DNA from: Berberis thunbergii
Taxonomy: Eukaryota; Streptophyta; Magnoliopsida; Ranunculales; Berberidaceae
Assembly (NCBI GenBank): GCA_003290165.1
Contig: QNQO01000806.1
Span: 186,001 to 250,000 of the forward strand
Length of the DNA: 64,000 nucleotides
Reading direction: 5' to 3'
Made by a program: the position numbers and the translations under genes. Below the pieces are notes generated by a model that made no database searches, was not told the origin of the DNA, and was given only the letters and a program-made list of their open reading frames with translations. The first letter of the stretch is position 1; each line of letters starts with the position of its first letter. This document shows positions 3,434 to 28,999 of this stretch, piece after piece.

Positions 3434-3525
3434 TAATGTCAATGATTGTCTCTTAATAATGTAATGAATTGATTTTAGCAAAGATGCAAACCCTAGCATT
3501 AATTGTCTATTTAAGGCACAACTAC
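3434..3525. repeat. Left copy of target tandem duplication
   Basis: The stretch containing 'attgattttagcaaagatgc' and 'taaggcacaac' recurs at 16,034-16,120 beyond the CACTA element. The two copies formed a local tandem duplication, and the transposon landed at the end of the left copy. The right copy reads through 'ggcacaactaatcacaag' without interruption and so shows the unoccupied site. Confidence 0.75.
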
Positions 3526-3554
3526 CACTACACCAAAAGGGCTGATTAGCTACA

Positions 3555-3745
3555 CAGGGGTGGCCACGGTTCTAAGCCGTTGGTGTGTTTGCCACGGCTA
3601 AAAACCGTGGCTATAGTGCCCAACGGCTTAAAACCGTGGCTAAAAAAAGGCTTGGCTACGGTTCTAAACCGTTGGTGTGTTTGCCACGGCTAAAAACCGT
3701 GGCTATAGTGACCCACGGCTTAAAACCGTTGCAAAAGTGCACGTG
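3555..3745. repeat. 5' subterminal repeats of CACTA element
   Basis: Repeated, partly palindromic units of the type GCCACGGCTAAAAACCGTGG, in both orientations. In this superfamily such arrays bind the TNPA-like protein. The same motif recurs at the other end of the element. Confidence 0.85.
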
Positions 3746-4985
3746 TGTTGCATGTGGACCTATGGAGATCTAGGTCGAATTCACGCGGGCGAAATTTTGG
3801 GAAAAAAATTTGCTTCCCACGTTCCCGCTCCATCTCCCCCCAACTCTGCAATTTTCAGCCCTTAATTTGCTTCAAACCCTAAAATTTCAAGGAGAGGGAA
3901 AGAGAGAAGGAGAAGGAGAAGGAGAAGGAAAGAGAGAGGGAAGTCGAGGAGGAGCAGTAGTCGGTCGAGAAGGCAATACGAAGAGTGTAGAAGGCGAGAC
4001 AGAGAGAGCTTCTTCTTCTAGGGATCGGTTCTTCAATCTGTGACCCTAGACTTCGTAAGTTTTCTTTGAAAGATCGCTATCTGCTTGTTTAGATCTTCCT
4101 TCTTAAGCTCTCTAATGTGTGTGATTTTTAGCTTCGATTAAGTGAATGTAGTTCAATCAAAGCTCTGAACGATCAATCGTTGAGTTCTCTCTCTGATTTT
4201 TTGTACTAATTTTTAGTTAGCTTGAATGAAATGAAGACACAACTTAGGTTTGCTTAACTAACACCTTCTTCATTCTTGTTTTGTTACATTTTCTAGTTTC
4301 AATCTCTGCAATTTCGGTGTTTGTATCGATGGATTGATTGGCATTGCTTTATGTTCTATTTGTGCAAGTTTCGGATTTCTAAAAATTTAGAGAAACTCTT
4401 TGTAATTTTAGAGCTACTTTACATTTTTGCATCTTTATGTCATAAAAGATTTTCAATTCAGCAATGCTGCTAGTGTAATCTTTTTGAACAATTTGAGATC
4501 TGATCTTAACTCAGAGATCCCACCCAACTTGTCATTGTAGGTTTCCAACATCTGTTTTCGTTAAATCCCCTTCAGTTTCTTCTTTGCATCACACATACTT
4601 TACTAGATAGAGATTGAGATGGATCTGAAACTCTTATTTTTCATTCAGTTACTAAAGATCTATGGAGATCTTGTTTAGATTCATTCCTACAAACTTGTTT
4701 TTGCGGATCTCCTGTGCTTTCTAAATGTGTTTTCAGTTTTTATAATGTACTAATACAAGTGAAACACCCACCCCATTCGATACTCGTCCACTCAACTCTT
4801 TGATTTTCATTATTTTGGAGAAACTCAATTGAACTGAATTTGGTTATCACAATCACACGCGCATTCACATCTAGATTAAATCATTAAAATATATATGGGG
4901 GTAATTCGTATGCAACATTTTCTTTGCAATTACTTGTTTGGGTACCATGAGATTTTGATTTTTTTCTTGATGTGAACCAGAAAAA

Positions 4986-7230
4986 ATGGCATCACATATT
5001 GTTGGATATCCTCGCATGGGCCCCAAAAGAGAGCTCAAGTTCGCCTTGGAATCTTTCTAGGATGGCAAGACCATTGCCAAGGATTTGCAGAAGGTTTCTG
5101 CTGATCTCAGGTCCTCCATTTGGAAGCAAATGGCTTCGGTCGGGATCAAGTACATCCCCAGCAACACCTTTTCAAACTATGATCAAGTGCTTGACGCTAC
5201 AGCGATGATCGGAGCTGTTCCTTCCAGATACAACTGGACTGGTGGTGAGATTGGGTTTGACACCTACTTCTCCATGGCTAGAGGAAATGCCTCTGTACCT
5301 GCTATGGAAATGACCAAGTGGTTTGACACCAACTAGTAAGTGATGATATCCTTTTTCATAATTTCAAACAAGTTTCATTGATCCATGGAGTTTTGTGTAT
5401 TAATTGGGTTCTAATTGATGCAGCCATTTCATTGTCCCTGAGTTGGGACCAGAGACCAAGTTCAGTTATTCTTCCCACAAGGCAGTGAATGAATACAAAG
5501 AGGCCAAGGCGGTATGTGCACTCAGGAATTTTATTATTAGTCGAATTGTAATGGTAGAGCTATGCCATGTTGATATTACTTGGTAATGGTTAAGTCTCCT
5601 TAAATCTTTCCTTCTTTCTGTTTTGCAGCTTGGCCTTGAGACCGTCCCAGTCCTTGTAGGCCCTGTCTCTTACTTGTTGCTATCAAAGCCCGCCAAGGGT
5701 GTAGAGAAATCCTTTTCTCTTCTCTCCCTTCTGGGAAGCATTCTTCCAGTGTACAAGTAAGTCTGCCCATGAGTGTTGCTATCTATATTTCCTAGTATGC
5801 CCACTCCAATTAGTTAGAACTAATGAATGATGATCACATTTTTTGCAGGGAAGTAGTTGCTGAGTTGAAGGCTGTCGATGCTTCCTGGATTCAGTTTGAT
5901 GAGCCCACCCTAGTGTTGGATCTTGAGGCTCACCAACTTCAAGCATTTACTCAAGCCTATTCTGAACTAGAATCAACTCTGTCTAGCCTTAATGTTATCA
6001 TTGAGACATACTTTGTGATGTTCCAGCTGAGGCATACAAGACAGTCACTTCTTTGAAGGGTGTTACAGGAGTAGGGTTTGATTTGGTTCGAGGGACTCAA
6101 ACCTTTGATCTGATTAAAGGTGGATTCCCTTTGGACAAATACCTCTTTGCTGGTGTGGTTGATGGAAGGAATATTTGGGCTAATGATCTTGCTGCGTCTG
6201 TCAGTACCCTTCAGACTCTCGTAGGCATTGTGGGTAAAGGTAATCATCCTAGAGACACAATGCACTAGTTTTTTTTATTAATCAATCAGGTTGAACTGAT
6301 TTATCATGATATCAATTATCCTATTCAGACAAGTTGGTGGTTTCCACCTCATGCTCACTCCTCCACAGTGCTGTCGATTTGATCAACGAGACCAAGCTAG
6401 ATGATGAAATCAAATCATGGCTTGCATTTGCTGCACAGAAGGTTGTTGAAGTGAACGCCTTGGCGAAGGCATTGTCTGGCCAAAAGGATGAGGTATCCAT
6501 TCTTATCTTTAGCTCCCAAGTTTCTATTTTTGTATGTTTGCTGTTGGCATGCATCAATCAAATTTTATGGTCCTATAATTGTTCAGTATGGTGGTTAATG
6601 TCACTTTGATGTTTTCCTAAGAACCTCGGACCCTATAGTGCATGCTATCATACTGGCACTTGGCAATTTGATTTACCCAGATCTATAAATATTTATAATT
6701 ATACTGAACAGCGAATAAATATAGTTGTGTTTGTCTCACTGTATTTGCTATATTGACAGGCTTTTTTCTCTGCTAATGCTGCTGCTCAAGCTTCAAGAAA
6801 GCTTCAAGAAAATCCTCCCCAAGGGTGACAAATGAGGGCGTTCAGAAAGTCGTAAGTGATCTGAGGATATTTTGTATTTTACTGTTTCATAACTTTTCAT
6901 GCTTACTAATCTTTACTGTCTATATTTGCTCAGGCTGCTGCTTTGAAGGGCTCTCATCACCGCAGAACTACAAATGTGAGTGCCAGATTGGATGCTCAGC
7001 AGAAGAAGTTAAACCTTCCAATCCTCCCAACCACGACCATTGGGTCTTTCCCTCAGATTGCTGACCTTAGGAGAGTCTGTCGTGAATTCAAGGGAAACAA
7101 GTGAGTGATCTCTAGCAATATAATCTGTTGACCTCATGATTTCAGCTTCAAGCAATTCTGTTCCACTAACATTTAATCCGATTTTCAGGATTTCTGAGGA
7201 TAATTATGTAAAGGTCATAAAAGAGGATAA
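4986..7230 (+). pseudogene. Captured methionine synthase (METE) 5' half
   Basis: Eight exon pieces match plant cobalamin-independent methionine synthase, which makes methionine from homocysteine and methyl-tetrahydropteroyl-glutamate. Exons: 4,986-5,335 (MASHIVGYPRMGPKREL), about 5,425-5,511, 5,629-5,757, 5,850-6,240, 6,330-6,492, 6,761-6,832, 6,935-7,100, and 7,189 to the break near 7,230. They cover roughly the first 460 of about 765 residues: the N-terminal domain and the start of the catalytic half (TTTIGSFPQ). The zinc-binding C-terminal half is missing. Lesions: TAG replaces the Trp codon after ESF (5,058-5,060), a 1-bp deletion in exon 4 (about 6,015), and an 11-bp direct duplication of GCTTCAAGAAA (6,790-6,811). 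Introns keep GT/AG ends. Sequence upstream (about 3,800-4,985) looks like a plant promoter, a leader and a leader intron ending in an AG before the ATG. It may have been captured with the gene. Confidence 0.93.
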
Positions 7231-7261
7231 TTATGATTTATTTTATTTCTTTTTTGGGCAG

Positions 7262-7507
7262 GTCGAGGTTTCTGAAAGAGAGAGAGTATTGCTTCTCAAG
7301 GTTGCAGAACTACAGGCCAGGTAGGTCATTACTGGTGCAGATCAAGTATCTTAGTTGAAATTTTTTCATCTTTAGGATATATGAACTACTGATGACAGAA
7401 GACAAAATCTTATTTGAAGAAATCTCCTTTTTTGCGTTCCCTGTATTCTGTGCAGGATGGTTGGTTTAAACCAAGAGCTTACACTGGAAAAGTTGAAACA
7501 TAATGAG
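7262..7507 (+). pseudogene. Captured coiled-coil gene exons
   Basis: Two exon-like blocks with good splice borders, 7,262-7,320 (VSERERVLLLKVAELQAR) and 7,456-7,507 (MVGLNQELTLEKLKHNE). The heptad-like, Leu- and Glu-rich composition suggests a coiled coil. I do not recognise the parent family. The fragment sits between the methionine synthase and glucosidase fragments and so marks a separate capture. Confidence 0.45.
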
Positions 7508-7680
7508 GTATTTAAACAAGGATAAATCATTTTAATTTGCATCTTCTCTCTCTCTCTTTTTCGAGTAAATTTGTTTTAAGCTAAAGCTTCATGGGTGAAA
7601 CTCGAAGCTTGTCTGTTTGAATTAGAAGAGGGCTTATGTCAAATATTGAATGGATGGTGGTAATTTGTGTAACCCCCCAG

Positions 7681-8263
7681 CTCACATCCTTCACCTCATG
7701 CTCCTCCTTCTAATGACCCACCAAGTTATCAAACTGATGCTTGTGTTAAACTCAGTAGTAAGTTCTTCTTCCCATTCAATTCTCTTTATGACTGTTTATT
7801 CTAGTTAATTTTACAGTTACATTAAATTAAACATTCTCTTCTTTTGTAGCTGAAAAGAATGGAATCCCAATTGGCACACAGGTAATGCTCGAATTATATA
7901 ACAATTATAATTTATTTAAACAAAAAAAAGGATTACTATGTAAGAAATACTCTCAACTTTTACATTATGTTATAATAGGCGGGTTCATCGTGGCTTTATG
8001 TGTTTCCAAAAGGGATGAGAAATGTGTTGGTTTACACAAAAGAAAAATACAACAATCCTACAATTTACATAACAGAGAATGGTAAGAGTGTACATTCTTA
8101 TTACAGAATTGGTGTAAAATTTATTAATATACAAATATTTTTTACATATAACAGGAAGAAGTGAAAGGGATAATACTACATTATCTTTAGAAGAAGCATT
8201 GAAGGACGGTCCAAGGATAGATTACTACCGTCGTCATCTTTTATCAGTCCTGCAAGTTATCAA
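7681..8263 (+). pseudogene. Captured GH1 beta-glucosidase fragment
   Basis: Four exon-like blocks (7,681-7,757, 7,850-7,881, 7,979-8,081, 8,155-8,263) with GT/AG borders encode the later part of a family-1 glycosidase. Recognisable segments are [21 protein letters not shown], then [18 protein letters not shown], then LSLEEALKDGPRIDYYRRHL. The ITENG motif holds the nucleophile Glu of GH1 enzymes. The N-terminal barrel with the acid/base NEP motif and the C-terminal end are absent, so no enzyme can be made. Family match is strong; the natural substrate cannot be told. Confidence 0.88.
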
Positions 8264-8401
8264 GTAAGTGTATTCATCTTGTTACAAAACCCCCAATTCA
8301 AGATCTGTGAAGGACTGACTAAATGATATATCTATTTACTCTTCTTTTATTGCTCTCACCTTTTCTTAGGCTGACCAAGAGGTTTTAACATTACATTGCA
8401 G

Positions 8402-8666
8402 GAGAGAAGGGATATGGTTACAAGGGCTGCTCATTCCACCGTATCATTAAAGATTTCATGATCCAGGGCCGGGACTTCACTAACGGAAATGTACGTTTTC
8501 ATTTTCTTCTTATCACTAAAAGAAGTAGTAAATTTAATAGATTTCTAGTAACGTTTTCTTTTGGGACTTAAATGTGCATTTCTTCTTCATTTTCCAATCT
8601 GGCTGCAACAGGATACTGGAGGAGTTAGCATCTATGGTTCTAGTTTTGAAGATGAAAATTTCAGTT
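8402..8666 (+). pseudogene. Captured cyclophilin fragment
   Basis: Two exons, 8,402-8,490 and 8,612-8,666, encode the heart of a cyclophilin peptidyl-prolyl isomerase: [20 protein letters not shown], then QGRDFTNGN, then DTGGVSIYGSSFEDENFS. FHRII and FMIQG include active-site residues (the FHR Arg). The family's usual GGDF reads GRDF here. Only about 50 of about 170 residues are present. The YGYKG loop resembles secretory-pathway plant cyclophilins. Splice borders are intact. Confidence 0.9.
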
Positions 8667-9919
8667 GTAAGTACCAAATCCATAAATTTTTTTGATTGGT
8701 TAGTTGACCTCTCGAACACCAAGTGCTTTGCTTCCTAATCAATATTTTATTAAGATCAGGTTATTAATTCAGGGCAATTGCAATATTTCCCTTCTATGGA
8801 GATAATGATGATTTTGTGTTTATTAGGATTTCGGTTAATAGCATTTTTATTGCAAACAAAGTCAAAGTGGCCTCTTTTCCTGAGCTCATGAACTTCAGCA
8901 TTGGAGGTGTACACGTACTTAAAAATACGGCTTTATGGGAAGATCTGTTTTGTGACTTGTCTATGCCTTGATTAGTCCTTTCAGACATTGTCTTGGTACA
9001 ATCATTTTCTCATAGACTTGTCTGCAGAGTTAATCTCTTAAAGACTTAAACTAGTTGGTACTTGTGTAGAAAATAAAGCAAAGAAAACTAAAGGAAAACA
9101 GAGTGAAAGTAAGTGGAACGGCCTAAGTATAAAGGACCTAGGCGTAGTTCCGTAGGCAGTATTTGAAAAAGTGAATAAGGAAGATGTTTTAAAGAGTGAA
9201 AGGAGGTGATAGGAAAGCCATGAAAAGTTGAAATATAATTGACAACAAAGGCTGTTATGGGCAATTTCTAAAGCAGAGGACAATAATATATGTGCCTTCC
9301 AAGAGTTTTACTAGAATGAATCTTTCTGATAATTGTGTTAATTTCCTCAAAATTGCTTACGAGGGAGGAAGTTATGTGTTGAAAGTCTGAAACTGAAAAA
9401 TGGAACATCAATTCTGCTCTGTTAATTCTCCTAACTTGAGGTTTCACATTTGATATGGATGACTTAGTCCATTTACTCTTTATTTATTGTAACAAACAAT
9501 ATACCTATTTTACTATTGAAAGCACTATCGTTTATCAAAATTTTATTATGAGTATTGTAGCTCTATTTTCAACAAATGGAATGGCCTTCAAAATCGCTGG
9601 TATGGTTACGCATGTTGTACACAGCATAAAAGTGAAGAACAGCTCGTAAAAGAAATCATGTTTGTTGACCAACTAGGGGAAATAATATGTAACAATTTGA
9701 TGATGTGTTTAGCGTTGTTGATGCTCACACGGGATCCGAATTATTCAAGGTGGGTGTGTACAATGTGCTAGTGCATTCTAGGTATTCTATGAATCTTTGT
9801 GGTAAAACGTACTTTAAGTATTCACCATGAACTTGTATTAACAGTTTCTAATGCTTTAATAGCATTAGCAGTTTGCAGTGATGTATCATAGCTATCAAGT
9901 ATTAACACTGATATTGCAG
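8667..9919. other. CACTA interior without recognised gene
   Basis: AT-rich sequence between the cyclophilin and ABC-transporter fragments. Short ORFs on both strands show no family features. The part just before 9,919 is probably intron carried with the ABC fragment. Confidence 0.5.
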
Positions 9920-11667
9920 GACTGTGTAAGGGGTGCTTTGAAGGGGAAGACCGTATTACTTGTGACACATCAAGTTGACTTCTTGCATAATGCAGATCTC
10001 ATATTGGTACGTATACACTTCTGTAAGAGCGAGGTAGAAGAATGTATTAATACATTTCAACTTATCAAACCCGACCACTTGGAATGAAATTTGTTTATGT
10101 CGTTCTTATTGTTGTCTAAAAATTCACAACTTAATCATGTATTAGGCCTTTGGATTAAGTTGTACTCATTATGGCTGATTGTATATGTTGGTGAAAAACT
10201 GTCAATGGGATTGGGCTTGATTCTTCCACTATGAAGCATATGAGAAAACCTTTTTCATAGATTGTTATTCATGCAAAAAGCAAAAAGATTTTTTATTTTT
10301 TTTGAAAAATTGACTTCTCAAGGGAAAACTTTCTTGTAAAAAATGATCTTCCATGAGATCTTATTTATTTTCTTGAAGAGAACGCCAGTTTGTGTTGAAT
10401 TGTTTCATCAGTGAAGTATGGGGGCGTTTTTCATAAGCCTTTGTTGTTGGTGATGATGTCAATAGTAAATTGTATAGTTGAGCTTTTGTTTCAATAGTGA
10501 AATTGCAATTCAAATTTACGTTCTTGGTATCCAATTCAGGTAATGAGAAATGGGATGATAGTTCAATCTGGAAAGTACAATGAACTTCTTGAAACTGGCT
10601 TGGATTTCAAAGCTCTTGTTGCTGCTCACGAAACCTCTATGGAACTAGTAGAGCAAGGTAACAATGATACAGAAGAGTCACCAAATTCACCAAAATCCTC
10701 TTCTCCCAGGGTGGCCAACGGTGAACCTATGCCTACAAATCTACCTAGTTCAGAGAGTGGAACCTCTAAGCTCATTGAAGATGAAGAGAGAGAAACTGGA
10801 CAAGTTAGCTGGCAAGTTTACAAGGCATATAGTACTGAGGCTTATGGGTGGTGGGGTGTGGTAGTAGTGTTGTTATTGTCGATTCTGTGGCAATTCTCCG
10901 TTATGGCAGGGGACTATTGGCTGGCATATGAGACTGGAGCTAAACGTGCAGCTTCATTTGATTCTTCGTTCTTCATTGGCATCTATGCGATCTTAGCTGC
11001 AGTTTCTATTGTGCCGGTGCTGATTAAAGACTTGTTTATTACAGTACTTGGCCTCAAGACTGCTCAAATTTTCTTCAGACAGATTCTTCATAGTATCTTA
11101 CATGCTCCTATGTCATTCTTTGATACCACACCTTCAGGAAGAGTTCTAAGTCGAGTAAGTTTAGTAGTGCAATTTTATGATTACATGGAATTGTCAATGA
11201 AAATTAAATAGTGCAGAAGTCCAACTCAGAATCACTAAATCAACATATTTCTTAGCGAAGCATTTGTTCGGGCTGGAATATTTAACTAGTGATTTGATTT
11301 TGTAGGCATCGACAGATCAAAGTAACATCGACTTCTTAAGCCAGGTGTGCATCTGCCAACAAATTTTATTATTGTTCACATACAAAGGCATTGACTGTGT
11401 GTTCATGAAGCATTTTGAGATTGGTCTCTAATCTAACTTTTTGTATACCCCCTCACATATATGGACTTTACATATTGCTCCTTCATTTAGTTTTTTGTAT
11501 TACAAGGCTCCTGGCTGGTGGTCTTTAGTTTAATAGCCCATTGCATGTTGTGGTGAGCATATACATGTATGTACCCATACATGGTGCGAGTAGAAACCAC
11601 TTGCATGTTGTGGAGAATCGAATGGTTTCTGTTGAAAGGATAAAACAGTTCACAAATATCCCATCTG
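9920..11667 (+). pseudogene. Captured ABCC (MRP-type) transporter fragment
   Basis: Four blocks match the middle of a plant multidrug-resistance-type ABCC transporter. 9,920-10,006 ([20 protein letters not shown]) is the end of nucleotide-binding domain 1, with the H-loop His in VTHQ. 10,540-11,154 carries the strand after the H-loop ([18 protein letters not shown]), the Ser-rich linker and the start of the second membrane domain, ending [15 protein letters not shown]. 11,306-11,344 is ASTDQSNIDFLSQ. About 11,615-11,667 is ENRMVSVERIKQFTNIPS, from just before domain 2. Sequence between the last two blocks is missing in the coding sense, so an internal deletion occurred. The 10,540-11,154 exon is still fully open. 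Walker A and domain 2 are absent, so there is no transport function. Confidence 0.93.
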
Positions 11668-12664
11668 GTATAACTTGTCTACACTACTTCTGGTATGTAA
11701 TTTTGGATTAGTAGTTTTAACATTATACTGGTTTTGATGCATTTCCTTATGATTTAGTTATATTTTTGTTCTGTAGTAACAGATGCTTCTCAGAATGGTT
11801 AAAAAGGTCTCAGAATTCCAAAATGTCATTGAACTGTTCATTCTGTTGATACTTTGTTTTACCCCATATGTGTTTCTTGACCATGTATCTGTTTCTTGAC
11901 CATGATTCATGAACATCCGTTGTTTTATTTTGTTGAATTTACTAGTTCCTCTGCACCTTATAAATGTTCTCATTTCAGGCAATAGTGTAGAAATTTGCCA
12001 TCTTAAATTCACAAGCTACTTAACAAGTTATATTTGACGTGTATGCTGTAGCTTTGCATTGAAGTCCTCTACTCTTCTTGACATTCACTTGAGGGTTTTT
12101 AACATTTTGAGGGCAGTTCCTGTTTTATACTAGGTTGATGTGTATGATAGGATTCCTATCTTTTAATTTGAATTAGGAAAAGAGACATTTTAATTTAATA
12201 ATTTTGGAAATATAATAGGTTGTAAATGAGGCAGACAGGATTATTCTTATTTTTTTTTCCTTGGTATATCCAAAATATAGAAGGGCTAGAAATAGAAAAT
12301 ATAACCATCATCTTAGACTGTTTTATACTCTATTTGGGCTTTGTATGCCAAATTACATTAGCTGATCAGTTCATTTTGTTCGACATAATTATCTTTGGTT
12401 GTTACCCTACTAACAATGAAGATAAACACTCGAACAAAAACGACGACTTAAATGAAAAAGCTTAACAATGTAAAGGATTGACCTAGCTTGATATTCTAAT
12501 CAACCATTTCTTCGTTGTCATCTTTGTTTCTTTCACCATTATTTGGTTTCTATATTCAGTTGGTTTCTCTGGACAAGTTGTCAAGTAACAAATATTTTGT
12601 TGCCAATCATATACATCCAAGTTCCGCATGGCATTCTGTTGGTATAACATGTGAACCATGACAG
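11668..12664. other. CACTA interior without recognised gene
   Basis: AT-rich spacer between the ABCC and SEC14 fragments. Nothing beyond short chance ORFs is recognised. Part is likely intron taken along with one of the neighbours. Confidence 0.45.
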
Positions 12665-12745
12665 ATTGTGAAGCCTTTTTTGCAAGAGAGAACAAGAACG
12701 AAAGTCCAAGTGCTGCAAGGTTCTGGTAAGGATGAATTATTGAAG
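12665..12745 (+). pseudogene. Captured SEC14/CRAL-TRIO exon
   Basis: One exon with AG before and GTAAG after encodes IVKPFLQERTRTKVQVLQGS then GKDELLK. This resembles the plant SEC14-like lipid-transfer domain just after its core, where 'KPFL..KT..K..VL.G..KDELLK' is typical. Only about 27 residues are present. The assignment rests on this motif alone. Confidence 0.7.
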
Positions 12746-13940
12746 GTAAGACGGTCATCTTCTTGGACTAGTTTTATGCTAATCTAATATTGGTGTTTGG
12801 TTTGTTGCATCCTGATAAAAGTTAATTATTCATTTGCTCCAGAGTATGCATATTTCTCTGTGTAGTATTATACATTTTCCTAATTTTCATCTGCGTAACT
12901 CTTCTCTGTTTGGGGTTACCCTTTTGTTCAAGATCTTTCATCATTCATTCATTTGTTAGTTGATTCAACTGTACATAATATGCAATTTCATTTCACAATC
13001 AGATTACAAATCTGACTAACCAAACCAATATGAATTGCTGATTTTACTGTAACTGATTTTCAAAAATCCGCAGATCATAACTGCCAGGACAGTGGGTACT
13101 CTGCAGTGAAACAGAGCGCACTCTGGTTTGCGACCAGCAGCAAGCTCGCATCAGTGCGTCCCTCGCAGAGCAGCAGTTCGTCCCTCACAGCAGCAACAGT
13201 GATTCCCTCGCAGCAGCAGCAGCAGTGCGTACCTCGCATCATCAGCAGATCGTCCCTTGCAGTAAGTCCGAAAATCTGCTATTGTTTACTTTTTTTTTGC
13301 AGTTATATTTAGTTTTTTCTTTGTTTCGGAAACTTGGTTATTAGATGTATGAACTCCTTATATGGTTCTAGAGACCACCATGTTCATGCTCTTACATTTA
13401 ATTATGTTTCTTTATACACTCTTAGAGACTGTTGTTAATTACTTATCGTTTATTCGAAAATACGTATTTGTGGTTAACTAGTCTTAGTTGCTTGTTGGCT
13501 TGGTTAATCACTTTCAATACAACATATATTACTTTAGAAGGGCAGTGAAAAATATGTTTGGAACTCGGGTTTTTTTTACAACTGAGTCTCAAATGATAAA
13601 TATGACTTGGGCGTCAGAACTCGGAACAGATTAGGAAATTTGGGCAATTGGATTTCGCCATATCTGAGCGGATAGTTGGGCAGTTCAAACTTCCAAATAG
13701 GGATTTGGGGATTTGGGAGATTTGAATGAAATCTCATATATAGTTTAGATACAATCTCAGCTCAAGGCTCATATCATAGACTCACTGTCAGCCTTCCTCC
13801 TTTTCCACTAATAAAACTTCCTTGCAGTCTCGCCTGAATAAAAATGAAAAAATAATAAACAAAAAATATCTTAACATAAATGCAATCCCATCTAGCTCTT
13901 CACATGCTTATTATTGTATACACTTCATTATAATTTGATC
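12746..13940. other. CACTA interior; Ser/Gln-rich ORF, no family
   Basis: The ORF at 13,106-13,312 encodes a low-complexity Ser- and Gln-rich segment driven by CAG/TCG repeats. It shows no domain and may be leader sequence of an unrecognised captured gene. The remainder is AT-rich and unassigned. Confidence 0.4.
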
Positions 13941-13941
13941 A

Positions 13942-14058
13942 ATGATGTATCTTCCAACTGTGTCGGACATCGTTCCAGCATTGAATGGATGCGAGCATGC
14001 AAGTAACCTAGAAATATATCACTCAGCTTTACTCCTGAAAGACATGCTCTGCATCTCA
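13942..14058 (+). pseudogene. Possible captured exon, unknown gene
   Basis: An open block encoding PTVSDIVPALNGCEHASNLE then IYHSALLLKDMLCIS, followed by a GT. It reads like real protein, and its position just upstream of the DUF547 exons could make it part of the same or another captured gene. I cannot name the family. Confidence 0.35.
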
Positions 14059-14310
14059 GGTAGCATTAAATTCCTGTATGATGAATGTATGAATGAGAAC
14101 CTTCGCATTAAATATTTTGATGGGCAATTGAAGATCAATGTCTTTTTATTTCACTTTGTGGAATTTTGATAGTTTTCTTGATGAAATGATCTATTACCCG
14201 TTGTTCTTTTCTCCGGGGAAACTTTGCATGTGTATTAAAAATCCCTATGTGTTTTAGTTACCCATTTCAGCTTAAAAGGAGGTAGACATTTATTTTTCTT
14301 GTTTTCACAG

Positions 14311-15151
14311 GCCTTTCTTGAGCACGGGATCCCAGAGAATCCTCAAATGATTTTCATACTGATGCAGAAGGTAATTTTATATTTGGTCATTCAATTTTCG
14401 TGCTTAGTGTTGCCATTTTTTTACTCTATTTTCATTTGTTGTGCCTAAGTTTTATGCATATGCACGATCTTCCTGTAAAGAAGAATTGGTTCGCTACGTG
14501 AAATTATTTTAAATTTCGTGTTCTTTATGTAAGTTTTTCAGATCACACTATTGCACGACTTTTTATATTTTACTCCTAGAATCTAGAATTTTAAATGAGC
14601 CTTCGTTTACTAATTGTGATTATAAACTAAATTTATTGTTCACTTCACACCTCCTCATTCAAATTTTTATCAGCTTGAAGGATCGTACTCATCCACCAAG
14701 ACATAGACCTTTCTATGAATAATAAGATCATGATGGTCTTCTCATCCTGAAATTTGTTATTCATCAACCACATACACAAGACACTCAAGCTCAGACCATA
14801 CTTTCTCCAACACTAGCTGATGATTCATGAAAGCCTAAATTTCCTCTGTTTCAGGCACTGATAACTGTAGCTGGGAACTCATTCAATGCAATGACTATCG
14901 AGCATTTCATATTAAGACTGCCTTTTCACTTAAAATATGTAAGTTTTTCATTTCAAATTTCTCTTTTTCATTCTAAATGGATTACCAGTTGTACAAGAAG
15001 AGGCGTTATTTTTATTCGTACTGATCTTTGCAAATCCCAGCAGACATGTCCAAAAGGTGCAAAGAATGATGAGATGACAGCACGAAGCATCTTTGGGTTG
15101 GAGCTATCAGAACCTTTGGTTACATTTGCACTCTCATGTGGAAGCAAAAGG
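14311..15151 (+). pseudogene. Captured DUF547 (MIP1-type) gene fragment
   Basis: Three exons encode the DUF547 core found in plant leucine-zipper/MIP1-like proteins: 14,311-14,370 (AFLEHGIPENPQMIFILMQK), 14,855-14,938 ([20 protein letters not shown]) and 15,044 to about 15,151 ([20 protein letters not shown], then [14 protein letters not shown]). In intact proteins the last block continues toward a variant of 'WSSPAVRVYT'. Here it breaks after CGSK and becomes unrelated sequence. The N-terminal zipper and the C-terminus are missing. The function of the family is poorly known. Confidence 0.9.
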
Positions 15152-15252
15152 TTTGCTGATATCACAAAAGGTTTGCTGAAACTGAAAGTCTATATGAGGG
15201 GTTTTGGGGTGCTAATTTATGTACTGGGAGAGTCCAATCTTCGACCTGTTTG

Positions 15253-15374
15253 AATTCCTCAAAAGCGACTTCCGGGAAGGATATCAAATTCCAATGTAGA
15301 TTCTAACAGCCAGGAATCATCACTCATTGATTGGAAGCTGGGAAGGTTTTCTGATTACCAAGATTCAGATAATG
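15253..15374 (+). pseudogene. Possible captured exon, unknown gene
   Basis: An open block encoding PQKRLPGRISNSNVDSNSQE then SSLIDWKLGRFSDYQDSDN, followed by GTAAA. Composition looks protein-coding (SNSQESSLIDWKLG). The parent gene is not recognised and no conserved domain is visible. Confidence 0.35.
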
Positions 15375-15704
15375 GTAAATTTTTCAAAGAGCTGCTAGTG
15401 TTTTCATCATTTTCATCATCAGCTTTGATTTTGACAAATAATGTAGTTTATTGTGTTGTTGTGATTCGACAGAAGAGATGGTGCTATTAGTTTGGTGGAT
15501 GTTGTTGTGTATATGGATAAGAGAAAAAAAGGGATTATTTGATTTGTAAGAAAATTAGCTTTCTTATTGAATACAATCCAGTCCATTTACTGTCATCAAT
15601 CCAGAATTACAATTATAAGTTCTTTAGTTTGTAATTTCTCTTCATTGCCTGTATTGCATCACTGTCACTTAACACCATAAAATAAAAAAAAAATTGAATT
15701 TTTT

Positions 15705-15990
15705 TACTAGCCACGGCTTAAAACCGTGGCTAAAATTTTAGCAACGGTTTTAAGCCGTGGCAAGTCTGGCCACGGTTTTAAGCCGTTGCTAATACTTGCC
15801 ACAGCTTAAAACCGTTGCTAAACTATTAGCAACGGTTTAGAACCGTGGCTAAAGCATCAACCGTCCTGAATATAAAACCGTTGCTAAAATTTTAGCCACG
15901 GTTTATAGCCGTTAAAAGGAATTTCGCGACGCCTCTGTAGCCCACGGCTCTTAGCTGTGACAATGGGTTACCCCCACGGTTTAAAACCGT
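15705..15990. repeat. 3' subterminal repeats of CACTA element
   Basis: About ten copies of units like TTAGCAACGGTTTTAAGCCG and their complements, often as perfect palindromes around TTTTAA. They mirror the 5' array, and this end is the denser of the two. Confidence 0.87.
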
Positions 15991-16033
15991 TGCTAATGGG
16001 GATTTTTGGTGTAGTGTACTCACAAATTTAACT

Positions 16034-16130
16034 AACAATGTAATTGATTGATTTTAGCAAATATGCAAACCCCTTACATTAATTGTTTGTCTAAGGCACA
16101 ACTAATCACAAGTTTAACTAATACGAATAA
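16034..16130. repeat. Right copy of target tandem duplication
   Basis: Parallels 3,434-3,525, including 'ttgattttagcaaatatgca' and 'taaggcacaac'. It shows the uninterrupted sequence at the site where the CACTA element sits in the left copy. Confidence 0.75.
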
Positions 16131-19963: not shown

Positions 19964-21829
19964 AGGCGGATTTGGACCCAAAAAGCAAAATCATATGGCC
20001 AAATCTTTCATTTTTTCATTTGCTCCATATCCTAATGCATTCTTTGATGTTTATGATTATGTTTTCACCATACCAACTTCAGTATGGAATGCATATGTTT
20101 TAGGGAACAACGATTACGGTTAGAGCTTTTCTTTAGTTTTATGCGCTACTAGATCGTATTGTCAAATATTTTTCTAAATGATTTGATCACCGTCTAGGTG
20201 GAAGACACCCGTTGAGGTTCTCGGTGGAAGACTCACATTGAGGTCTCCCTAGTTTGGATCTATATGATTGATCAATTCTTTGACTATGTGGGCAATTGTT
20301 TCTGGGGAAGGAAAAAAAATATAGGAGGATAATATTTAACTTTTTTCAGAGCATGGCAAAACACAAATGGAGGTTGATGTACTTTACTATATGTTTAGTT
20401 TACAAGACTACTAGATTGTCAAATTATGACATAAAAGCCAAAAAATATTAAAAGGTTAACCTTCACCTAATTATTGACTTGCATATATCAACTTATTGGT
20501 GCACACGGATGAGATCATGCATATTCCTAGCTATTCATCTAAATCAATCATATTTGGGGAGGAATGATAGTTTTCATTTCTACAAATATAGATGTTGACA
20601 AGAATAAGACTCGTCGACTGACATTTTCAGTAATTATCTAGAGCAAAGTTTATATATGTTGCATTTCACTGAGTTGATGGAGCTTGACACAAAAGTCTAT
20701 TCTTTCTTTATGAATTACAACAAAAATGGGGAAAAGAATGGATTTTGGCTATTTTATTGTGTAAGGAGGATATGAATATCATCATTTTGCGTAAAGGGAT
20801 GGATATAGACTCGTACACATGACAAAAGTTTATTGTGCCTGCAATACTTTATTATGATTTCAAGGAATTTAAAATTTTACCAAAACGAAAAACAACCTTG
20901 AATGCAAAATGATATCAACAAGAATGGACCGTGTCAATTCTTAGACCTTTTATTTATTAATTTTTTGAAAAACGATCAAGGTTTTAAGGACCCTAAAATA
21001 CAGATACAATCATTGAACTAATTTAGTGAATTCGAGGAGATTTCATCATATCCTCAACAAACAAGCTAACAACTATAGCTCAACCTACTCCGTGAAGAGA
21101 ATAATCTTGCAAAGTGATTTGCTTCCATAGAGCCACATTCGTGCGATTGGCCAAAAATCTCCATAGTATTAATGAACTTGGGATGCCTTCCTCGATCGGT
21201 TCGATTTACTGAGGCTTGATTACATTTTTTTTTTGTAATTGAGCTCGAGCCCAAACATTCACATGCCAAAGTGGATTAAAGTTTGAATTATCATCATTAC
21301 ATCATCTTCTTCTAGTCATTTTATTAAGAAAATCCCAAAACACAAAATACTTTTAAAAACCTTCCTTATTAGATATTGGAACAAATGAATTAACCAAAAC
21401 CTAAACCTAAAACCAAACCCTGAATCAAGGTTTATTGGCATCCCTAATTGGTAATTCAAATGACACCATCACTTTACCATCCTAACATAGCTCTATAATA
21501 AAAGCAAAAGAATCTCACATCATACAACTCCTCCCCAATCCCCACACCAACCTGATAGCGCACTTTAATCCTCCCAAATCTCACGGGTGCGCAGTCCGAT
21601 ATCCTACGCACCACCAATAAGACAAACTCAACGAAAAAATCTCCACTCTTTCACTAAAGCGAGTGTCCTCTGTCAAGTCTCTTCTTCTTCTTCTTCTTCT
21701 TCTTCTGCTCCACACATCAGCAGATCTCCAGTGCGCACTCAATCCACTCTTACCAGTCCAGTGCGCACTCTCTTATCTTACGCACCCTCTGCTCTGTTTC
21801 TCTTCAATGGTTCAACATTTTCGAACCCA
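19964..21829. other. Unassigned region upstream of GT14 gene
   Basis: No recognised gene or element. The last about 300 bp are CT-rich and form the likely promoter and leader of the GT14 gene. An in-frame upstream ATG at 21,587 opens an 81-codon extension. Confidence 0.45.
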
Positions 21830-24800
21830 ATGAAGAGCTTATCAACTTCTTCTTCACTCCTCTCCAAAGTCTCTCTTCTTCTCCACATCGACTCGACGAA
21901 ACAACAACAACAACAACAACAAAAGAGGAAGAAATGGTTCCTTCCATTAGTCTTCACTCTAATCTTCTCATCTTTGCTCGTCATTGTATCCATCTTTGCT
22001 TCCAACGGAATCTTACCCGTCTCTCGCCCTAAATTCAATCATCAAAAACCCGTCTTTGTCGAATCAAAACTACACATTTCGCCCATTTCAACTAAACCAA
22101 TTCCTCGAATTGCGTATCTGATCTCTGGATCGACTGGGGATGGGGAGAGCTTGAAGAGGACGCTTAGAGCTCTGTACCATCCCATTAATCAGTATGTAGT
22201 GCATTTAGACCTTGAAGCTTCGGCGGATGAGAGATTAGATTTGATGAATTTTGTGAGAAATGAGCCAGTTTTTAGTAAAGTGGGGAATGTTCGAGTTATC
22301 GTTAGAGCCAATTTGGTCACTTACAGAGGCCCTACTATGGTTAGTAATACGCTTCATGCCGCGGCCATCTTGTTGACGGAAGGTGGAGATTGGGATTGGT
22401 TTATTAATCTCAGTGCTTCTGATTATCCTTTAGTGACCCAAGATGGTAATTTTCTTCTTTACTATTCTCCTTTTCTTGCTTCCTATTTTCTTGTAGAATT
22501 ACTTAATTTCAGAGATGGCTTCTTTCAATCTTGCTTAATTCACTTCCTTATGCATTGGGAATATGTGATCTGGCTTTAGATCATAACAATAATCTAGTAC
22601 CATAATAGGATCTATGGGGTGTCGTTGGAATGATGGTTAAAAAAAAAAAAAACCTATATGTAACAAGACATACTGCTTCTGGGTTTTATATTCATTTTGA
22701 GTTTCCTTTTTTTTTTATTTAGGATTATTATATTATTGTGTTTAGTATATCCACTTGTCTGTGCTATTATCGATTCTTCCACTTTTTATTTATTTATTTA
22801 TTTATTATTATTATTATTTATATTTTTTTATTTTATTTTTATTTTTAATGAAATGCTATATATGCACTTAACTTAATTCACCTTCGATTTCCATGAAACA
22901 GATCTTCTTCATACCTTATCCAGTATACCAAGAGACCTTAATTTTATTGAGCATACAAGTGACATTGGATGGAAAGAGTACGATTCTTTCAATTTTCTAT
23001 AACATAGTATGTTTATCAGTTTAACGTTAAGCTTACCAAAAAGATGTTGGTTTTTGTACATTTTATAGATATCAGCGAGCAAAGCCAATTATCATAGATC
23101 CTGGGCTATATAGCATAAAAAATCGGATGTATTCTGGATTTCAGAGAAAAGAAGTGTTCCTACAGCATTTAAGCTTTTCACAGGTAACAGCTTCATAGTG
23201 TAGAAATGTGGTAACTGAATTCTACAAAAGTACAACAAATATGGTATAATTAGGGAACATGCGGGTTGACTCACTATAACTATAAAACTGACTGTGGTTC
23301 CATAAGGTATAAAGGTTCATTATGCTTTAGGACAATTTATTCTTGTTAAAGATTTTATTCAATTGTTATGACACGGTTTTGTTGCTGTTTTAGTTTCTTA
23401 CGCCAATCTATGAGTAGATTAGTTTCAACACATTTTCCTACAAGCCTAGAGATGCAAGCAGGAAACTTTGGTTTTTTGCTTCCTTAATGAGGTATTAAGT
23501 GGTTGATCAAGAAAATGCCTCTCCTGTCTTTTCTTGATTGGTCTAATTATGAAAACGTGGACTTCTAATCAAGTAAGCTATGTCATGTGGCGTTGGCTAT
23601 CATATTGAGGTGAAAGAGGGTATTTTGACTAGTTTCATTGAGCTATCACTCCTATATCAGCTATTTGACTTTTCTTGGTCTTGATTCCCATGTGGTCAAG
23701 AGATATATATTCCACATTAGTCTCACCTTTTTGAAATAACCACAACGACAACTCAAATGGTGCATTAGAATGACAAGATCATTGCTATAATGAAATTAGA
23801 ATAGTGTCTCTCTTCATTTCTATTTGTAATGTTGTTTCTTTTTCTTCCAACATGGTCTTTTAACAATGTCAAGTCACAAAGCTGAGAATTGACATCAGTT
23901 TCTCACTGTTGACAATATCATCAAGAGAGGACTGTTGATTCTTCCTAATCCTTCCTAGAGAGTGTTAACATTTGAACTGAATGCTTCAGTGAGATTGTAA
24001 GCACAAATTCTTGATTCCATTCAGCAGTGGGCAGAGACTTGGTCTTCAACAAACTTGGGCAGCTCCCACTTGTTACTCACTGGGAGGTGGGTTTGGGCTA
24101 GAATACTTCATGCCATTGCTTGGGTAGTCTGGAAGGAGAGAAATAATAGGATCTTCAAAAGTATTTCCAAAGATGTACATAGTTTATGGAACTAAAAATC
24201 ACTCACGGGTTTAGTGTCAACACGTGGGATATATTCAAAGATACTCCTCTTATATGTTCGACTTGGGTGAGATAGTGAGAGATCTAAATTGATAGAATTA
24301 ATACTGTAACTAAGCGAGAATTGAAATACGAAGCATGAATTGAATTGTAATAAACCTAAGATAAAAATAAGTAAACAAAATAAATACTCTTTTATTCAAT
24401 CAATTGTCTAACAATGAACAACCTACACCCTACTTATAATTGTCATAACTTCTCTGGCACCAAAACAAACCTAATTCTAATTAAAAACCAACGCCTTCTC
24501 TCGTATGGGCTATTACTAAATATGCCCAATTATTCCTAACACTAATCTAACCCTAATATTGGTGGTCGGAGGACGGCAGACTACTGTCTATCGAGGGAGT
24601 GTTGTTGATCGACTGATGATGGAATTAAACGGGGTGGGTCAATGAGGAGAAAGAGGAGCGGGGGGTCTGTGATCGACTGGCCAAGGGTTTTTACAGAGTG
24701 GGTCAATGTGACTGATCGAGACAAGGGGAAGAGGAGGTTGATCGATGTGGTGCAGGTCAGGGGGAAGCAGGAGGTTGATCGATGTTGTGTAGGATAGGGG

Positions 24801-27800
24801 AAGTAGGAGACACTTGTGCAACGCCGGCTATTTGTGCAACATCACCAGCTGGCAGGAAGAGGGGTGCGATCTGGGCGATTGTCCCGGTGATGGGTTGTGT
24901 GTCACCGCTACCTGTGGTGCTGGAGGAGGGGTTCTGTAGTGCTATCGGAATTGGTGGTGTTGTGTATGCCCTTTGGCTTTCATGCATGAAAAAACTATGT
25001 GAGCATCAGTCGCATCTCCTTCATCTCCTTTGCCAGTGCCTTCGCTAGTTGGAGTCGCCCTTCTTCTGTTATCTCCCAAGCTTTTCTTCTCAAACAAATT
25101 TTTCGTGAAATCGAACGTAATATCTTGAACCATTTCGACTCTGATATCAATTGATAGACTTGAAACTATAACTATGAATGAATTGAAATTCAAAGCAGGA
25201 ATTGAATTGAAATAAACCTATGATAAAACAAGTAAACAAAATAAATACTCTTTTATTCAATCAACAGTCTAACAAGAAGCAACCTACACCTTATTTATAT
25301 TTGTCTTAACTTCTTTGGCAAGAAAACAAACCTAATTTTAACTGGAAACCAATGGCCTAACTATATGGGTTGTTACTAAATAGGCCCAATTATTTCTAAT
25401 ACTAATCTAATCCTAATATTGCTAATACTGTCTACATCACATTATTAATTGTGTACTATATATAATACAATTTTGTTCTGCTTGTTAAAAAAAAATCCAA
25501 AAATTAATATAGGGATTGATCGTCAAAAGAAGGAAGATCTTTTATAAATAAACTCCTTGATTATCATCTTAATGATAATTTCTGTGAAAGTAGCCTTGAA
25601 TATTAGGTTTGTAAATGTGGATCTCTAGACTTTGAGGAAAGTTCCTTGACATGGGAGGATCTGATTGTTGATCGATGGATGAGGAAGAAGTTAGGGTATA
25701 TTTGGTTGCATGGAATCCATGGGGACTACTTGAATTGGTGGGAAGACCGCTTGTCAATGATGCACGGACTCTTAGAAAAATTTCCATTCCGACACTCGCT
25801 GAACACGCATCAGACACTTGGTCAACGTGTCGCCGGGGTCAGACACATGGTCTATGTGGTCAACGTGTCGAACACCCCTCTGACCCATCCAAAACTTGGT
25901 CAGGACAGTCAAGACTCGACAACCAAATTTATGTTATTTTTATTTTTAATTTAACTCATATAACCACTTAATTTGAAGGTTGTTAGTCCATGAAAAGTGA
26001 AAAACTTTCAATTATGATTTAGGAGTCAAGATAGAAAGGGCGATGAAATGCCACTACGGCATAAAGGTAGTCTATGCTTCTTATTAATCTTTGTTAATTC
26101 TTCTCTCGTCTACTTCCTTACTTCACGTTGTTTTTTTACAAAATGTTATTTTCTTCTCTACTTTTATACATTTTCTCGTTTTTACTGTTGTTTCTTCATG
26201 TTCTTTTCTATTTATTTTTCCTACTTGCAATAGAAGTAAGGATGCATTGTTTGTTTTTTCTATTTAAACTCTTTCTTTATTGAGTTTTTGTTTATCTTCA
26301 TTTGGTTTTATTGAAAAAAATATATGATGTGTCATCGTGTTCCCTAGTCCTAGTTTTTTGAAAATTGTCGAGTCAGCGCATCGTGTCTGTGTCCATGCAT
26401 CCTTGCTGCTTGTGTTTAAAGAAAATTTGATCAAAATATGGTGGACCACTTATCACGAGTTCTAGTTCGTGATCAAAGGTGGGGAGTTAAACTCCCGTGA
26501 AATATGAGAAATCTATTTCTTTGGAAAGGAGTTGGGATTTTCATGTTTCATGGGAATTCAACTCCCACCTTTGATTAAAATGCTGAATCCATGATAAACG
26601 GTTCATCACATTTTGATTAAATTTGCCTTAAACACAAGTGATCTTCCATGGATTCTATGAAATTGGATTTAACTTTAAAACACGTAATACTTTGTAGATC
26701 TAAACTCGTACATATATAGTACATCACCATCTCTCATCCAGGCGACGTGGGACTATATTCTACCCTTTGTAGCTTGCCAATCCTTTTGAGATCCATGGGC
26801 TCTTGGGCTTCTCCCGCGCCCTCCCCTTCAGGTCCGCCTACACTAGGGTATCACAGTCCACCCCTTGGGAGCTCAACATTCTCGTTGGCACACTTTCGGC
26901 TAGGTTAGGCTCTGATACCATTCTGTAACGACCCGATCCATTGAGTATTATATTATCCGCTTTGGACCCAAGGCTCGCACGGCTTTAAAACACGTAGTAC
27001 TTTGTAGATCCAAACTCGTATATATATATAGTACATCACCCTTCCTTACCCAGCGATATGAGACTATGATCTATTTTTGTAGTTTGCCAACCTTCTTGGG
27101 ATCCATGGCTTCTTGAGCTTCTCCCGCACATTCCTCTCATGTCCACCCACTAAAGGGTATCACAAGAGGAAAGGCTTAACGTTTCAAACGATGATGGCTT
27201 CTTTCTGGTGAGGGAGAGAGGAAAGTATCGGGGATGCTAATAGTGTAGGATAAATGGATAGTGTTGGTCTCGTAGTACTTATAGTTTTGGGGGCTAGAGT
27301 TAAGCTCTCACTGCCTTTTCAAGAGTTGACCACAGGCAGGTTCCCTTCTTTGCCATTTTTCTTTATATTAGCCTGGGGTTGGAATTGAAAGGATTGGTTT
27401 AAGCCCATGATTACGTTCTTTCCAATATGGATATACAAAGAAAATTTGCCTTAATATATGTGTTCTGTTAGTGACTGTCTAAATTCTTACTTGATATGAA
27501 TAAGCATATGAGAATTTCAAATAATGAAGAAAATTTCAGATATCAGATTTTGATTTGAACAATTTTCTGTATCCAAAATTTTGTGGATGTGGATTGAACA
27601 TGTATTCTTTCTGATAGTATCAAACCCAATAATGTTGTGCATCAAAGTATTAGCTAACCAATAATAGAAACTATTTCATTGACGTAGTGTCTCAGTTAAT
27701 GTCACTCTGTATTGAACTATTCAAATTTTTGGCAATTTGTGTGAACTCACCAGATTTCATCATTCCGATGCTAGTGGTAAAGGGATTTGACTTTTGGAAG

Positions 27801-28999
27801 TAAGAGTTGGAATGCCATGTTTCTATGAGGCAGCTTTTCCATGTTCACGGAACTATATAGTCTTAACATAGATTGTCATGAAGCTCTATGATGGTCAAGA
27901 GTATAATGCTATTTTCACTAATATATTTAAATGTTATTTTGTACTTATAAAATTGAAAAGCTTAGCATTAGCTGTATTTCCTTCTTTTTTTAAATATATG
28001 TTTATAGCTGATAGACCAACTCCTCTAAGTAGGCTTGACAACAGGTCATGTCATGTCAAAGAGGGTTGCTTGTGACAGGATTGGCTGTTATAACTTATAA
28101 CACCCTAGTACCCACTTTCCTAGCAGTCCCCTGTATTTTGTTAGCAATAAGCTTCTCCCATTAGTGCATTCGCTTAATATTATGCTGACTGACTTCCGGT
28201 CCCCTGCAAGCATAATGGTGGTTCGAAACAAGTTTTCTCAGAGAACAATTGGCAATTTAGTCGTATGAAACTCATAGATTACCAATTAATGATGATCCTG
28301 GATGCCCTGTTGAATTAGAATTTGCTCACTATCCTTGTTGAAAATGATGGCATATAAGATGCATGTAGCTTGAGTTACGATAATACTTTTTAGTCATATG
28401 TTAGACATTATTGTGGTGGGATCAAGTTTGTTTTGAGTGTGTTAAACCTTTCTTTTAACAATCAGTCATGTATTTTGTTTTTCTCAGGTTCAGCTTGGAT
28501 GATGCTTTCTAGACCTTTTACAGATTTCTGTATATGGGGTTGGGACAATCTCCCAAGGACAGTCCTAATGTACTATACCAACTTCCTCTCCTCGCCTGAG
28601 GGATACTTCCATACTGTCATTTGCAATGCTGATAACTTCCGGAACGCAACTGTCAACCATGACCTCCACTTTATATCTTGGGATAATCCTCCCAAGCAGC
28701 ATCCCCACTTCCTCACAGACAATGACTTCCAAAGGATGGTCGACAGCAATACCCCGTTTGCGAGGAAGTTTGGCCACAATGAGCCAGTGCTTGACAAGAT
28801 CGATACGGTGCTTTTAGGCCGCACTCCCGATGGATTTGTGCATGGTGGATGGTCTATTGATGGTGGAAATGCAACCATGAGTATCCCTTATTTAGCAAAT
28901 ATATCTGAGCTCAAACCAGGCCCTGGTGCAGAAAGGCTCAAACACCTTATCACAGGTTTGTTATCGGCGAAAGATTTTGATTCAACGCACTGTCTTTGA
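21830..28999 (+). CDS. GT14 glucuronosyltransferase-like gene, frameshifted
   Basis: Four exons: 21,830-22,445, 22,902-22,977, 23,069-23,183 and 28,488-28,999. The product resembles plant GlcAT14-type enzymes (CAZy GT14), Golgi type-II membrane proteins that add glucuronic acid to arabinogalactan glycans. A poly-Gln tract and Lys/Arg-rich stretch are followed by a membrane anchor (LPLVFTLIFSSLLVIVSIF). The catalytic region follows: RIAYLISGSTGDGESLKRTL, WDWFINLSASDYPL, CIWGWDNLPRTVLMYY, SPEGYFHTVICN, and a C-terminus GPGAERLKHLI. Start 21,830 gives a normal-length protein of about 439 residues if the frame were whole. Exon 3 is one base short: the A run at 23,117-23,122 has six A, and the expected frame resumes after it. 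Read as given, translation stops just inside exon 4. Either a recent null allele or a homopolymer error. Intron 3 is about 5.3 kb of repeats. Confidence 0.88.
23830..24190 (+). pseudogene. LINE 3' fragment (zf-RVT region)
   Basis: The + strand encodes FLTVDNIIKRGLLILPN (about 23,895-23,950) and then WAETWSSTN plus HAIAWVVWKERNNRIFK (24,022-24,190). Both are signatures of the zinc-binding region after the reverse transcriptase in plant LINEs. The frame is broken between them. It is a 5'-truncated, decayed copy inside intron 3 of the GT14 gene. Confidence 0.78.
24290..25435 (-). mobile_element. Short LTR element (TRIM-like)
   Basis: Direct repeats at 24,290 to about 24,560 and 25,152 to about 25,435 share 'aaataaatactcttttattc', 'caacctacacc' and 'taggcccaattatt'-type blocks at roughly 80% identity by eye. 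Just left of the second repeat is GACTCTGATATCAA, the complement of a methionine-tRNA primer-binding site (TTGATATCAGAGTC). That makes the right copy the 5' LTR of a minus-strand element. The about 590-bp interior has no pol. Confidence 0.65.
25693..26670. mobile_element. Interrupted palindromic MITE
   Basis: A MITE end (GGGTATATTTGGTTGCATGG) at 25,693 and inverted arms around 'caaaggtggggagttaaact' (26,475) and 'ggaattcaactcccaccttt' (26,550) belong to one family of palindromic elements. Between about 25,760 and 26,400 another unit with ends like ATGCACGGACTC and GTGTCCATGCAT appears to have inserted. The right outer end is cut off where the TRIM repeat begins. Exact borders are uncertain. 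Confidence 0.45.
26672..27164 (-). mobile_element. TRIM retrotransposon with about 68-bp interior
   Basis: The right LTR is 26,924-27,164 (TGTAACGACCCG ... GGGTATCACA, 241 bp). The left LTR, about 26,672-26,855, lacks its first about 55 bp. The interior (26,856-26,923) holds only a complement of a polypurine tract (GTCCACCCCTT) and a complement of the primer-binding site (GCTCTGATACCA), so the element is on the minus strand with essentially nothing but priming signals. It lies in intron 3 of the GT14 gene. Confidence 0.8.

Follow-up and report, generated by a model that had tools for sequence, protein, structure and literature searches.

A probable non-autonomous CACTA transposon of Berberis thunbergii carrying fragments of six unrelated host genes

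What kind of element bears pieces of several unrelated host genes between two short inverted termini, and how did it come by them? These questions are raised by a stretch of 64,000 nucleotides of Berberis thunbergii (contig QNQO01000806.1, positions 186,001 to 250,000), hereafter the window. Positions 3526–16016 of the window are a single CACTA insertion of 12.5 kb. The left terminal inverted repeat, CACTACACCAAAA, matches the right terminus exactly on the opposite strand, with both inverted termini beginning with CACTA and a TAC adjoining each end, as the original prediction had described. No further exact copy of CACTACACCAAAA is present elsewhere within the window. Moreover, the flanking DNA is duplicated in tandem over 85 bp; the first unit comprises 3454–3525 plus 16020–16035. 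The second serves as an internal empty site and shows that both ends entered as one insertion. The suspicion that the termini belong to two different elements that met by chance is thus answered by the TAC duplication together with this empty-site paralogue (Table 1).

Analysis of the regions next to the termini revealed that each end of the element carries short subterminal repeats running in both orientations, a result that bears out the predicted repeats through the 89-bp units, the 31-bp array and the clustering of the motif CCGTKGS. Of 34 occurrences of this motif on both strands of the window, 25 fall inside the 592 bp of subterminal DNA, compared to 0.3 expected from length, the motif having been picked post hoc after inspection of the sequence. 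Markov resampling of the subterminal DNA (2000 runs) gave a mean of 0.56 and a maximum of 4. The CACTA-type inverted termini, the 3-bp target duplication and the subterminal repeats at both ends are those of the CACTA (DTC) superfamily.

Table 1. Features of the insertion and its flanks (window coordinates).
Feature	Position	Strand	Basis or length
Target site duplication TAC, left copy	3523..3525	.	
Left terminal inverted repeat	3526..3538	+	13 bp
Left subterminal repeats; an 89-bp unit present twice (91% identity), inverted GCCACGG..CCGTGGC arms	3556..3736	.	
Region with leader; GT donor after 4054, AG acceptor 4979-4980	3737..4980	+	sequence
Fragment of methionine synthase, residues 1-470; runs from exon 1 into exon 8 (our count)	4981..7225	+	
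Two exon-like pieces, 7262-7320 and 7456-7507	7262..7507	+	sequence
GH1 beta-glucosidase, four-exon fragment with uncertain first border	7681..8263	+	
Cyclophilin fragment, two exons	8402..8666	+	
ABCC transporter fragment, four exons, Walker B to start of second membrane domain	9693..11344	+	
Possible further ABCC exon after internal deletion	11601..11667	+	sequence
CRAL-TRIO/SEC14 exon, 27 aa, weak	12665..12745	+	
Piece with imperfect 23-26-bp tandem repeats	13061..13262	+	
DUF547 fragment, three exons, last one cut near 15145	14311..15145	+	
Exon-like piece adjoining DUF547 breakpoint, right limit approximate	15146..15378	+	
Right subterminal repeats; array of 31-bp period at 15708-15912, plus more motifs	15708..16003	.	
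Right terminal inverted repeat	16004..16016	-	13 bp
Target site duplication TAC, right copy	16017..16019	.	
Intact second unit of the 85-bp tandem duplication in the flanks; serves as internal empty-site paralogue	16033..16121	+	

Protein comparison assigned the cargo to six unrelated sources: methionine synthase, GH1 glucosidase, cyclophilin, an ABCC transporter, CRAL-TRIO/SEC14 and DUF547. The claim of at least six host gene fragments in a CACTA element is thereby supported, with SEC14 on weak evidence. Five of the six fragments passed the curated Pfam cut-offs, whereas the SEC14 piece stayed under its cut-off (CRAL_TRIO, E=0.0085); against the PDB, it retrieved four sequences at E<=10, three of SEC14-like protein 2 and one of SEC14-like protein 3 (E 0.06–0.47). 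For the ABCC piece, 293 relatives were found at E<=0.001; in the 120 of them that were listed, identity is 62% for the one with the top score and at most 68%, and no near parent was found there. Its predicted identity held, and its start was moved to about 9693, in the Walker-B region. The methionine synthase piece, likewise correctly identified, needed revision to the extent and lesions given here: a nonsense codon at 5058–5060, a 1-bp frameshift near 6016 and an 11-bp tandem repeat at 6788–6809 that shifts the frame again. Against these three lesions in 1380 nt, the other exons compared, 1600 nt that include the 67 nt of the tentative ABCC exon at 11601–11667, contain no in-frame stop; such numbers are too few for dating.

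Five of the fragments keep introns, in agreement with the predicted exon-intron structure, and therefore came from genomic DNA. Removal of the introns at AG/GT borders, chosen by us with the protein in view, lets the protein similarity run on across the joins. In addition, all six recognised fragments lie on one strand, an outcome expected by hand calculation once in 32 cases under random orientation; this is only suggestive of a non-random arrangement.

Beyond these fragments, about 5.7 kb of the element lie outside the assigned parts. The region with the leader may belong to the element itself or be 5′ UTR from the methionine synthase gene. The exon at 11601–11667 may be a further ABCC exon; the comparisons gave no ABCC match for it. 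Three further pieces had no source match in the comparisons made, in line with the expectation of at least one unknown. For the two exon-like pieces at 7262–7507, neither a family match nor, among 28 candidates by shared words, any hit at E<=10 was obtained. The tandem-repeat piece gave no family match in Pfam, and the piece adjoining the DUF547 breakpoint no match in family or homologue comparison. A resemblance of the last piece to squamosa-promoter-binding proteins was considered but gained no support from the homologue search, which gave one candidate and none at E<=10.

A transposase of the tnp2/TnpD type was not found by Pfam in 24 non-cargo pieces or ORFs (some overlapping) and the six cargo proteins, a scan that took in a subset of the ORFs shorter than 120 aa. 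The element has no ORF of at least 120 aa outside the ABCC and DUF547 cargo. Two matches, to DUF3747 (E=0.066) and Ribosomal_S17e (E=0.034), were disregarded as far under the Pfam cut-offs. A search of the whole window for RNA families found nothing that reached gathering scores. We put the probability at about 0.87 that the element belongs to the Pack-CACTA or Tgm-Express type of non-autonomous CACTA (DTC) transposons, a figure that applies to identity and non-autonomous state and leaves the route of capture outside. An autonomous relative would supply the transposase in trans, and a DNA-binding protein would act on the subterminal repeats. The left end is called 5′ by convention only, from the reading direction of the cargo.

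How the cargo was gained may be read from the breakpoints. Two of the three exonic breakpoints have a local direct repeat nearby, 13 bp long in one case and 15 bp in the other (random, 0.011); adding the uncertain GH1 start gives two of four (random, 0.021), and adding the presumed ABCC breakpoint as well gives three of five (random, 0.002), in a test that is post hoc and covers few breakpoints. Such repeats are not enriched over the whole element: the 11.9-kb core holds six, the 3.5 kb to its left one, and the 48 kb to its right, satellites included, 49. The repeats at the breakpoints suggest slipped or template-switching repair. We propose, at about even odds, that the element gained genomic DNA piecemeal through error-prone gap repair after excision. 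Excision would leave a gapped element, to which error-prone repair would add genomic DNA piece by piece, while template switching and slippage would leave short local repeats at some of the joins.

Fusion of neighbouring CACTA insertions, by aberrant excision across a locus, could also have brought in the cargo in place of gap repair with template switching; we regard this route as rather unlikely, yet well worth keeping in view. It has been proposed, as a fusion or hybrid route, for Arabidopsis Pack-CACTA in two reports (PMC8903248, PMC13317346), and it would likewise take up genomic DNA with introns. However, several rounds would probably be needed for six unrelated genes, self-comparison revealed no remnants of subterminal repeats between the fragments, and the local repeats at some exonic breakpoints argue against it. 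A patchwork of old pseudogenes with termini paired by chance deserves hardly any credence: the decayed methionine synthase piece would fit, but it would not explain termini that match exactly and have equal TAC flanks, subterminal repeats that both ends share, or the clean paralogue of the empty site.

It is also highly improbable that a Helitron or Pack-MULE gathered the cargo and was later nested in a CACTA element. Helitrons have a 5′ TC, a 3′ hairpin plus CTRR and insertion between A and T, and Pack-MULEs have long inverted terminal repeats and a longer target duplication. The element has one Helitron-like 3′ end, a hairpin plus CTAGT near 12133 on the minus strand, but such ends number three in the whole window and simulation gives 0.1 per core strand, making a single one unremarkable. 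Helitron 5′-like ends with at most one mismatch show no excess in the window either (58 found, 69 expected), leaving Helitron features in the element at about chance level. In place of Pack-MULE features, there are 13-bp termini, a 3-bp duplication and a core with eight weak inverted pairs of 16–23 nt, none long; altogether, the search for a nested Helitron or TIR element found nothing beyond chance in the element. Maize Helitrons do bear many gene fragments, and one putative autonomous Helitron is reported to have eight predicted (PMC3288121).

Within the known class of gene-fragment-carrying CACTA elements, this one is a cargo-rich new example, with Tgm-Express1, Tpn1 and the maize Pack-CACTAs as close precedents. 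Tgm-Express1 of the soybean wp allele (PMC1947982) also carries several unrelated host fragments in a CACTA element, with exons and introns kept and exons that can be spliced together. At 5.7 kb, it has captured five fragments, which are spliced as cassette exons, whereas the present element has 12.5 kb, six recognised sources and further pieces; the subterminal motif of the Tgm-Express1 family (PMC2613891) differs, and the splicing of Tgm-Express1 is known, whereas that of the present element is predicted. Tpn1 elements of Ipomoea nil (7.1 kb on average, 40.6 kb at most; PMC5105172) are likewise non-autonomous CACTA elements with the inner part replaced by host genic DNA, 3-bp duplications and subterminal repeats, but were found via 28-bp TIRs, compared to an exact terminal match of 13 bp here. 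As a 20.5-kb CACTA element is also reported from soybean (PMC2613891), the label "giant" given to 12.5 kb holds only relatively. Pack-CACTAs of Arabidopsis and maize (PMC8903248) likewise lack transposase and have coding DNA, in many cases drawn from several loci, enclosed by CACTA ends; their calls rest on clustered copies and genome coding sequences, whereas ours concerns one element in one window. On wheat chromosome 3B, where CACTA elements also carry gene fragments, 140 capture events involved 145 genes (PMC4290129), mostly about one gene per event, in contrast to the six recognised sources of the single Berberis element. Viral contigs yielded no sister element by terminus or by subterminal motif, and ten pattern matches to the ABCC piece with none confirmed; the terminus as a text string had no match in papers.

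Could the element have assembled a chimeric gene? From transcripts that run along the cargo, splicing would yield a variety of chimeric RNAs, most of them non-functional because the first fragment has a stop and two frame changes. A hypothetical spliced transcript from the left end has a possible frame of 328 codons that reads ABCC in its native frame, and the cyclophilin and SEC14 parts out of frame. A CACTA-driven chimeric gene built by directional exon collection, with one orientation and slipped-repair scars at some joins, is improbable, and we lowered our estimate slightly because these cyclophilin and SEC14 stretches are not native. If true, template switching in repair, with co-orientation favoured by selection or mechanism, would be a way in which CACTA elements gather genes. 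CACTA elements represent one exon-shuffling route in plants, and the six sources, kept splice borders and breakpoints within exons make this element a good test case for the route of uptake and for orientation preference. Gene predictions across the region would be chimeric.

The CACTA insertion at window positions 3526-16016 is a real, clean and cargo-rich element of the Pack-CACTA type, a kind already known. The original prediction described perfect 13-bp termini, a TAC duplication and subterminal repeats at both ends, all of which were found in the sequence. No further exact copy of the terminus CACTACACCAAAA occurs elsewhere in the window, and both ends are bordered by TAC. The GCCACGG/CCGTGGC-type subterminal repeats comprise an 89-bp unit present twice, at 91% identity, on the left and an array with a 31-bp period on the right, and sequence comparison revealed that the left and right subterminal DNA match one another. 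The motif CCGTKGS, picked only after the sequence had been viewed, has 25 of its 34 window occurrences inside the 592 bp of this subterminal DNA.

The flanks of the element, once joined, form a tandem duplication with an 85-bp unit (parts 3454-3525 and 16020-16121), which served as the insertion target. The second duplication unit (16033-16121) is continuous across the position equivalent to the insertion site, representing an internal empty-site paralogue. Together with the TAC on each side, this paralogue shows that both ends arrived in one insertion, which answers one of the two refuting conditions set beforehand, that the termini belong to two different elements.

Features of the element, in window coordinates
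Feature	Position	Remark
Terminus CACTACACCAAAA, 13 bp	3526-3538 and, inverted, 16004-16016	exact at both sites
Exonic breakpoint, methionine synthase end	near 7225	
Exonic breakpoint, ABCC start	near 9693	
Exonic breakpoint, DUF547 end	near 15145	
Direct repeat, 13 bp	7196/7223	at methionine synthase breakpoint
Direct repeat, 15 bp	15145/15165	at DUF547 breakpoint
Direct repeat, 13 bp	11541/11601	adjoins possible ABCC deletion

Exons were joined at AG/GT borders chosen with the protein in view, and protein comparison matched all six predicted sources of the cargo, SEC14 weakly. The methionine synthase fragment matches PF08267 (E=1.4e-91, residues 1-244) and the PDB chain 1u1h_A in three stretches (residues 1-244, 246-388 and 385-470). 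The GH1 fragment matches PF00232 (E=4.5e-14) and Os4BGlu12 (E=3.8e-33), the cyclophilin fragment PF00160 (E=1.1e-8; top PDB match, E=1.9e-19), and the DUF547 fragment PF04784 (E=5.8e-13). The ABCC fragment matches PF00664 (E=6.5e-13) and ABC transporter C family member 13 (E=2.9e-49), with a Walker-B region at its start (~9693, E=1.6e-23). The CRAL-TRIO/SEC14 exon scores E=0.0085, under the curated cut-off, and all four PDB matches with E<=10 are SEC14-like. Plant proteins are the best match for most cargo pieces, from which, along with the neighbouring genes, the window is inferred to be plant DNA. All six recognised fragments lie on the + strand, and five span introns, the exception being the single-exon SEC14; the retained introns indicate that genomic DNA, not mRNA, was captured. 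Counting the exon-like pieces within 7262-7507 and a candidate extra ABCC exon as assigned, 5,738 of the 12,491 bp are left without assignment. Pfam detected no transposase in 24 unassigned, partly overlapping pieces of the element, which has no ORF of at least 120 aa beyond the cargo; Rfam gave no match at gathering scores. Neither a nested Helitron nor a nested long-TIR element showed signals in excess of chance.

The reading frame of the methionine synthase piece is broken by a nonsense codon and altered twice, first by a 1-bp frameshift and then by an 11-bp tandem repeat; the remaining joined exons have no in-frame stops. A hypothetical, purely illustrative transcript joining the left leader, which precedes methionine synthase, to all of these exons would have 3913 nt. 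This model contains the candidate ABCC exon, includes exon 7262-7320 without its first and last base, and extends its last exon beyond the DUF547 breakpoint to an end with no GT border. Its longest ORF (328 codons) starts in the cyclophilin exons in a non-native frame, passes through ABCC in the native one and stops within the SEC14 exon, where the exon lengths put it out of frame.

Searching for direct repeats of at least 11 bp spaced within 80 bp revealed six in the core, the 11.9 kb of element interior. Repeats lie within 30 bp of two of the three exonic breakpoints (random, 0.011), of two of four with the uncertain GH1 start added (random, 0.021), and of three of five with the putative ABCC breakpoint at the possible deletion added too (random, 0.002). 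Repeats at the joins fit slipped or template-switching repair, but the test is post hoc, and against it stands a repeat density no higher in the element than on its right side (6 in 11.9 kb versus 49 in 48 kb, satellites included).

Related elements are described in several reports. Soybean Tgm-Express1, a CACTA element of 5.7 kb, carries five unrelated fragments as spliced cassette exons (PMC1947982), and morning glory Tpn1 elements of up to 40.6 kb hold host genic DNA in their interior (PMC5105172). Maize Pack-CACTAs have the most distinct loci among the Pack-TYPE groups of one study, where locus number correlates with element width (PMC8903248). Gene pieces also occur in grapevine and wheat CACTAs (PMC2528002, PMC4290129), and Chenopodium elements are described with fragments from one gene family each (PMC8978399). 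The running text surveyed lists no single CACTA element with more than five named sources; we claim no record.

Elsewhere in the window, a second CACTA element of 2.74 kb (45162-47902) has termini CACTACAAGAAAT and CACTACAAGAAAA with one mismatch, TTT at each side and a GCGACGG/GCGGCGG-type subterminal motif, unlike that of the first; its 118-codon open stretch (47034-47387) has no Pfam match. Satellite-like tandem arrays of several periods occupy 41402-41744 (19 to 134 bp) and 59477-60775 (74 to 337 bp). The same short tandem arrays recur at 41068-41276 and 42057-42248, ~970-990 bp apart, a pattern that could come from long direct repeats or LTRs. Two Core-2/I-branching pieces (PF02485, profile positions 1-106 and 159-249) within 21587-28999, in ORFs 5.9 kb apart, are apparently parts of a single gene whose introns are long. 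An O-methyltransferase dimerisation domain lies at 37.6 kb.
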